DNA from: an uncultured Burkholderiales bacterium
Lineage (GTDB): Bacteria > Pseudomonadota > Gammaproteobacteria > Burkholderiales > Burkholderiaceae_C
Reading direction: 5' to 3'
Assembly: GCA_937864005.1 (NCBI GenBank)
Contig: CALMIL010000070.1
Location: 1-54,255 of the forward strand
Length of the DNA stretch: 54,255 bases
The translations under genes were made by a program, and so were the position numbers. Below the pieces are notes generated by a model that saw only the letters and a program-made list of their open reading frames with translations, was not told where the DNA came from and made no database searches. Shown here piece by piece: positions 20,435 through 21,628 of this stretch (the first letter of the stretch is position 1; each line of letters opens with the position of its first letter).

Positions 20435-21628
20435 GTGACGACCCGAACCCTCCCCGCATTGATCGATGCCGTGCTGACCGGCGAGCGGCGGGCAATCGCG
20501 CGCGCCATCAGCGAGATCGAACGCGGCGGCGCGCAAGCCGGCGCGCTCTGCGCCGCACTCGCGCCGCATCTGGGCCGCGCCCACGTCGTCGGGCTGACCG
20601 GGCCGCCGGGGGCCGGCAAGTCGACGCTCGTCAATGCGCTGCTCGGCGCGCTCGTCGGGCAGGGGTCGCGTGTCGGCGTCGTCGCCGTCGATCCGTCGAG
20701 CCCGATCAGCGGCGGCGCGCTGCTCGGCGACCGGGTGCGCATGGGCGAGCACGGCGAGCACCCGGACGTCTTCGTGCGCTCGATCGCCTCGCGCGGGCAT
20801 CTGGGCGGCCTGTCGCGCACGACGCGCGGCATCGTCGATCTGCTGGATGCCGCGGGCCACGACATCGTCCTCGTCGAGACGGTCGGCGCGGGGCAATCCG
20901 AGGTCGAGATCGCGGAGCTTGCCGATACCTGCATCGTCGCCTGCCCGCCCGGGCTCGGCGACGAGGTGCAGGCGATCAAGGCCGGCATTCTCGAGATCGC
21001 CGATCTGCTCGTCGTTACGAAGGGCGACCTGCCGGCCGCGCGCAGCACCGCGCGCGACCTGCGGCACATGACGCATCTGCGCCGCGCGCCCGCCGACGGC
21101 GGCTGGCAGACGCCGGTGCTCGCGGTCACCGCGACGAGCGGAAATGGCATCGCCGCGCTGGTCGAGAAAATCGGCGCGCACGCAACGGCCGTCGGACGGG
21201 GCCGGCGGCTGCGCACGGCGAGCGATGACGCGAAGCCGCTGCGGCTCGCCGCGGAGCACGAAGCCACGCCGGCGTCGTACTTCGGCATCGAGACCGGCGC
21301 ATCGAGCGCGGGTGCGTCGCTGCGCGTGCGCGAAACGCATCTGGACGATGCCGGTGCCTGCGCGCGCAGCGTGATCTATGCGCTCGCCGATGCGGCGGCA
21401 AGCGACGCGGTGCGCTCGGCCGGCGCCGGGGCGTCGGCGGTCGTGGATGCGCACATCGCGTACCTGAACGCAGCGCGCGAAGGCGACGTTCTCGTCGCGA
21501 AGGCGGGCGAGGCGTCGCGCACTGCGGGCGGCGACGCCGTCTGGCGCGTCGAAGTCGCTACCGAAGGAGGGCGGCCGATCGCGACGCTCGCCTCGACCGT
21601 CCGCTTCGAAGCCGCGCCGCGGCGGTAG
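20435..21628 (+). CDS. MeaB/ArgK-type G3E GTPase fused to a hotdog (PaaI-like) domain
   Basis: This 397-aa protein begins with a MeaB-like GTPase: Walker A GPPGAGKST at about 56-64, VAVDPSSPISGGALLGDR, then ETVGAGQSE and TKGD. MeaB proteins protect and load B12-dependent acyl-CoA mutases. From about residue 275 to 393 the sequence changes to a PaaI-like hotdog fold (YFGIETG, VIYALADAAAS, VVDAHIAYLNAAREGD, ASTVRFEA). MeaB alone is about 330 aa with a dimerisation arm, so the hotdog part seems to replace or extend that arm. The HGG active motif of PaaI thioesterases is absent (ARS instead). No mutase gene lies nearby. The start is GTG at 20435. Confidence 0.85.
   Translation: MTTRTLPALIDAVLTGERRAIARAISEIERGGAQAGALCAALAPHLGRAHVVGLTGPPGAGKSTLVNALLGALVGQGSRVGVVAVDPSSPISGGALLGDRVRMGEHGEHPDVFVRSIASRGHLGGLSRTTRGIVDLLDAAGHDIVLVETVGAGQSEVEIAELADTCIVACPPGLGDEVQAIKAGILEIADLLVVTKGDLPAARSTARDLRHMTHLRRAPADGGWQTPVLAVTATSGNGIAALVEKIGAHATAVGRGRRLRTASDDAKPLRLAAEHEATPASYFGIETGASSAGASLRVRETHLDDAGACARSVIYALADAAASDAVRSAGAGASAVVDAHIAYLNAAREGDVLVAKAGEASRTAGGDAVWRVEVATEGGRPIATLASTVRFEAAPRR

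Follow-up and report, generated by a model that had tools for sequence, protein, structure and literature searches.

The window, a stretch of 54,255 nucleotides from an uncultured Burkholderiales bacterium, carries at positions 20435-21628 of the forward strand a single open frame with a GTG start that encodes a protein of 397 amino acids. The N-terminal 256 residues match the Pfam MeaB family (PF03308, 278 bits, residues 22-256, positions 20498-21202), and against the NCBIfam MeaB model TIGR00750 the protein scores 285.6 bits, above the cut-off of 240.75. This G3E GTPase domain contains the P-loop GPPGAGKST (residues 56-64, positions 20600-20626) and the switch III residues D176, Q179 and K182 (positions 20960-20980), which correspond to D182, Q185 and K188 of MeaB; catalytic and switch III positions were transferred by motif and spacing from published work (PMC9974510, PMC10481361). 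The C-terminal 114 residues match the Pfam 4HBT family (PF03061, 32 bits with a cut-off of 20.6, residues 313-381) as well as the NCBIfam PaaI model TIGR02286 (44 bits, E 2e-11, residues 286-389), the latter score lying below the cut-off of 118.9 so that the window hotdog does not reach PaaI equivalog status. The hotdog domain covers about residues 284-393 (positions 21284-21613) and is thus shorter than residues 270-397, for which the first-pass annotation had suggested a domain search. Between the two domains a linker (residues 257-283, positions 21203-21283) is located where the dimerisation extension of MeaB is expected to start. No B12-binding or mutase domain was found on this chain by Pfam. 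In this respect it is unlike IcmF, the isobutyryl-CoA mutase with a GTPase, which likewise holds a MeaB-type GTPase within a larger polypeptide but has it joined to a mutase and not to a thioesterase fold.

MeaB acts as a dimer in which switch III reaches across from one protomer to complete the partner's nucleotide site, and its C-terminal extension participates in dimerisation (PMC9974510, PMC10481361). Moreover, the switch III residues couple GTP hydrolysis to B12 transfer (PMC9974510). The window fusion shares the GTPase domain, the P-loop and switches I-III with MeaB/MMAA, a G3E GTPase that stands alone and serves methylmalonyl-CoA mutase (MCM) as chaperone, but lacks the C-terminal dimerisation extension and carries the hotdog in that place. 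Accordingly, MeaB structures in the PDB align with the fusion protein only up to residues 246-263 in sequence and structure comparison. An AlphaFold2 monomer prediction based on a 51-row alignment (mean pLDDT 84) showed high confidence for the GTPase core and for the hotdog, the latter with values of about 86-97 for the most part and about 73 at residues 331-340, and low confidence for the linker, where pLDDT fell below 50 at residues 265-278. Foldseek matched the GTPase part of the model to MeaB (4jyb, E 4.9e-22) and the hotdog part to PaaI (1psu, E 3.7e-9; 2fs2; 1j1y, TM 0.85 to the target). The predicted structure and Foldseek thereby rule out that residues 275-393 form the normal C-terminal arm of MeaB, the reading which the first-pass annotation had set against its own proposal, and they place the hotdog at the position of the dimerisation arm, a replacement about which that annotation had asked.

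A contig scan and whole-genome searches revealed 12 in-frame fusions of this kind including the window (genome G000). The full-length homologue in G003 (L111, with the same sequence as L005) is 97% identical to the window fusion and that of G004, also from the window genus, 61%. Further fusions are found in G023 of the same family, at L006-L009 and in G483, G405, G360 and G578. Since the same in-frame architecture recurs in 12 genomes, at one locus each, an assembly artefact, a frameshift or chance is ruled out, and with profiles and predicted structure in agreement the fusion of a MeaB-type GTPase to a PaaI-like hotdog, first proposed from the DNA letters, is confirmed. Nevertheless, it is rare and was present in four of 150 relatives, the query genome counted in. 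The motor and switch III residues K62, S63, D86, D99, R102, E148, D176, Q179 and K182 are conserved in all 12 proteins. Linker length varies among the fused homologues, and each of them is without the MeaB arm. Within the window genus, G001 and G002 lack the fusion. The neighbouring gene, for a pyridoxal-dependent (PLP-dependent) decarboxylase, lies on the same contig and strand as the fusion in the three genomes that possess it, and this gene is also missing from G001 and G002. The two genes are present or absent together, and therefore the locus is passed on as one block in this genus.

A link between the fusion and a B12-dependent acyl-CoA mutase had been presumed in the earlier annotation. 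This link is invisible in the window and in its genus, where no such mutase adjoins the fusion, and emerges from the other nine homologues. In these, a B12-binding small subunit, a mutase large subunit and the GTPase-hotdog gene follow each other in this order with the fusion directly behind the mutase, although one contig (L009) begins inside the mutase gene. As in MeaB/MMAA, the gene adjoins mutase genes in these relatives, and its position directly behind them makes a joint handling of mutase and acyl-CoA the best reading. Upstream of several of the mutase operons we read a TetR-type gene. A gene for an AMP-forming CoA ligase lies just behind the fusion in L008, L009 and G023, and a branched-chain-type ABC transporter was read from the sequences at L008 and G023.

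The mutase of these operons (PF01642, 558 bits) has its best PDB match in the 2-hydroxyisobutyryl-CoA mutase HcmA (4r3u), which is thus its closest solved relative and likewise consists of a large subunit and a separate B12-binding small subunit. Compared to the methylmalonyl-CoA mutase of the window genome, Y89 is replaced by H in 17 of 18 sequences, R207 by N in 17 of 18 and Y243 by Q in all 18, while H244 is kept in the same alignment. The numbering of these four residues is that of the P. shermanii enzyme, in which they contact the substrate. The residues at the Y89, R207 and Y243 positions also differ from those of HcmA. Judged from its sequence, the operon mutase is therefore a distinct acyl-CoA mutase subfamily with unusual active-site residues and not a methylmalonyl-CoA mutase, the partner of MeaB/MMAA. 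The mutases of L006-L009, L014, L017, L022, L106 and L147-L153 predominantly have H, N and Q at the three positions. In the G222 operon two more genes of the 4HBT_2 thioesterase fold are located between mutase and GTPase (L148:8768-9661), genes for an indolepyruvate ferredoxin oxidoreductase lie near the G405 operon (L149:3-2300), and a reductase of 656-657 amino acids similar to old yellow enzyme and FadH lies near the G360 operon (L150:970-2940). A GalT/HIT-like protein of about 350 amino acids recurs in the mutase operon (L148:6343-7392, L150:6060-7103 and, fused to the GTPase, L022:8760-9782); its NCBIfam GalT matches are weak and Pfam gave none above the cut-off.

The hotdog also occurs as a separate gene of the operon. 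It adjoins the GTPase gene in L148 and L152, and it is the next gene after a fusion of the GTPase to a nitroreductase-type domain (PF00881) in L014 and G100. Moreover, the hotdogs of these operons are closest to PaaI (TIGR02286, 102-108 bits). Together with the unequal linker lengths this would fit a plain joining of co-expressed genes, in which GTPase and thioesterase work uncoupled and the latter recycles pathway CoA as PaaI does in phenylacetate degradation. We regard this as unlikely, as the fused GTPases are not monophyletic and the MeaB arm is missing from every one of them, so that the hotdog seems to stand in for a structural part; in L148, where the hotdog is separate, the GTPase retains a MeaB-like C-terminal tail. 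In the GTPase tree the window fusion clusters with L006-L009 (support 95/91), and a single clade of all fused GTPases was rejected (p-AU 0.00015). For the hotdogs, among which the window genus has a long branch, the rejection of one clade was weak (p-AU 0.038, and 0.053 after removal of the window genus). A single origin of the fusion is thus rejected on the GTPase tree and borderline on the hotdog tree. Because the fused GTPases are not one clade, the fusion probably arose more than once from adjacent genes of the operon. Repeated fusion is the simplest reading of these trees; an ancestral fusion that was split several times is a less likely alternative.

In the hotdog, the HGG motif, an Asn in the HLNF segment (position 304) and an Asp (position 319) are presumably the catalytic residues, as in thioesterases of the PaaI type. 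All nine mutase-linked fusions have HGG and Asp intact in the alignment, in common with PaaI, the hydroxyphenylacetyl-CoA thioesterase whose 4HBT hotdog fold and profile are the closest. The hotdog therefore probably started out as an active thioesterase. In the window, HGG is replaced by A310-R311-S312 (positions 21362-21370), in agreement with the ARS reported by the first-pass annotation; G003 has ARS as well and G004 has ERS. Position 304 is D in these three and N in eight of the nine other fusions (S in L151), and Asp319 (positions 21389-21391), the Asp of the ALAD helix, is conserved in all 12. The window hotdog differs from PaaI in its linkage to a GTPase, its score below the equivalog cut-off and the lost HGG. 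As the loss is confined to the window genus and HGG is intact elsewhere, it is a property of this genus and not of the fusion. The earlier inference that the hotdog binds rather than cleaves fits the window genus, in which N, H, G and G are gone and the Asp alone is left, but not the nine mutase-linked fusions. The same evidence bears on the related idea of an acyl-CoA gate, also raised by the earlier annotation, according to which the hotdog binds acyl-CoA uncleaved and controls GTP hydrolysis or docking to the mutase as its main role. The persistence of the fold, of Asp319 and of selection after the loss of HGG would be in line with such a gate, and for the window genus it overlaps with the explanation that we prefer. 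However, pure gating is unlikely as a general role since all nine mutase-linked homologues retain HGG, and taken as a whole we do not consider it likely.

Hotdog proteins function as dimers or tetramers, so that the hotdog could supply the contact between two GTPases. One reference of PMC10356863 states in its title that itaconyl-CoA derails methylmalonyl-CoA mutase. With such poisoning of a B12 mutase by an acyl-CoA known, a thioesterase at the mutase would make sense. The explanation that we prefer, and consider reasonably probable as a whole, is that in a MeaB-type B12 chaperone a PaaI-type hotdog has taken the place of the C-terminal dimerisation extension, most likely when the chaperone gene joined an adjacent gene of the same operon. 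In an operon of TetR gene, B12-binding small subunit, mutase large subunit, GTPase and hotdog, the GTPase would load and repair AdoCbl in the acyl-CoA mutase. The hotdog would pair two GTPases in the role of the lost arm and hydrolyse dead-end or poisoning acyl-CoA near the mutase. In the window genus the mutase operon appears to have gone and the catalytic segment has degenerated, with HGG changed to ARS or ERS and N to D, and selection retains both domains. Here the hotdog would most likely be a non-catalytic dimeriser or an acyl-CoA-binding regulator or sensor, and the chaperone would have another client.

As stated by the earlier annotation, no mutase gene is close to the fusion within the window. 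The cognate operon mutase is also absent from G000, G003 and G004, whose genomes are 94-96% complete; it could have been missed through incompleteness, but this is unlikely in all three of them. A search for it elsewhere in the window genome found B12-binding domains only in an ordinary methylmalonyl-CoA mutase (C108), in IcmF (C251) and in a protein read as MetH from its size (C109). The methylmalonyl-CoA mutase is adjoined by its own MeaB, and IcmF has its own GTPase domain. A second mutase is found in G003, G004 and G001. It is an unlikely client because it occurs in G001, which lacks the fusion, and is missing from G000, which carries the fusion.

The missing client, the lost HGG, the long hotdog branch of the genus and the absence of the gene from its congeners G001 and G002 could indicate that the window member is a functionless relic that drifts after the loss of the mutase. 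However, the dN/dS between G000 and G003 was 0.142 for the GTPase domain and 0.108 for the hotdog, comparable to the neighbouring genes (0.117-0.156 in four and 0.326 in one small protein). The hotdog value rests on nine changes, seven synonymous and two non-synonymous, and by our own arithmetic the chance that neutral evolution gives at most two non-synonymous changes among nine is about 0.003. Both domains of the fusion are thus under purifying selection in the window genus despite the loss of HGG and of the mutase. In addition, the frame is intact in three genomes and all motor and switch III residues are retained. A decaying relic is therefore very unlikely, and the low dN/dS of the hotdog suggests that it seems still useful without HGG.

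If our explanation is true, cofactor repair and acyl-CoA quality control are united in one polypeptide. The finding also points to an unstudied subfamily of B12-dependent acyl-CoA mutases with a defined operon. Furthermore, it offers a natural test of the role of the MeaB dimerisation extension, as evolution has replaced this extension several times. In our search, with most subscription journals outside its scope, no publication was found on MeaB with a hotdog, on MeaB with XdhC or on MeaB and a fused thioesterase in connection with a mutase. A broader and more speculative proposal, which we rate as rather doubtful, is that the MeaB extension is a replaceable dimerisation slot for a hotdog, a nitroreductase-type flavoprotein, XdhC or a GalT-like domain, that the hotdog form of the mutase operons would repair a new class of B12 mutase and clear toxic acyl-CoAs, and that the form lacking HGG would be an acyl-CoA-sensing GTPase. 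All of these slot partners are presumably dimeric folds.

Besides the hotdog, several other domains were observed in this slot. In the mutase operon described above, a nitroreductase-type flavoprotein domain that weakly resembles BluB is joined to a MeaB-type GTPase (L014:8001-9443, L107:5523-6821), and the GalT-like domain of L022, which has no Pfam match above the cut-off, occupies the slot of its GTPase. At L010, L012, L013, L015, L016, L018-L021, L023, L025, L027, L028, L031, L032 and L035, in Aromatoleum, Lautropia and other betaproteobacteria, XdhC/CoxI sequence continues the frame of a MeaB-type GTPase; Pfam was run on the XdhC part of L028 only (PF02625, PF13478). A link between the G3E GTPase and molybdenum-cofactor insertion is possible for these proteins. 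Genes for an indolepyruvate ferredoxin oxidoreductase are located near one of the XdhC fusions (L013:11170-14736), and a reductase similar to the old-yellow-enzyme/FadH-like protein near the G360 mutase operon lies close to the fusion of Aromatoleum (L028:5033-7000).
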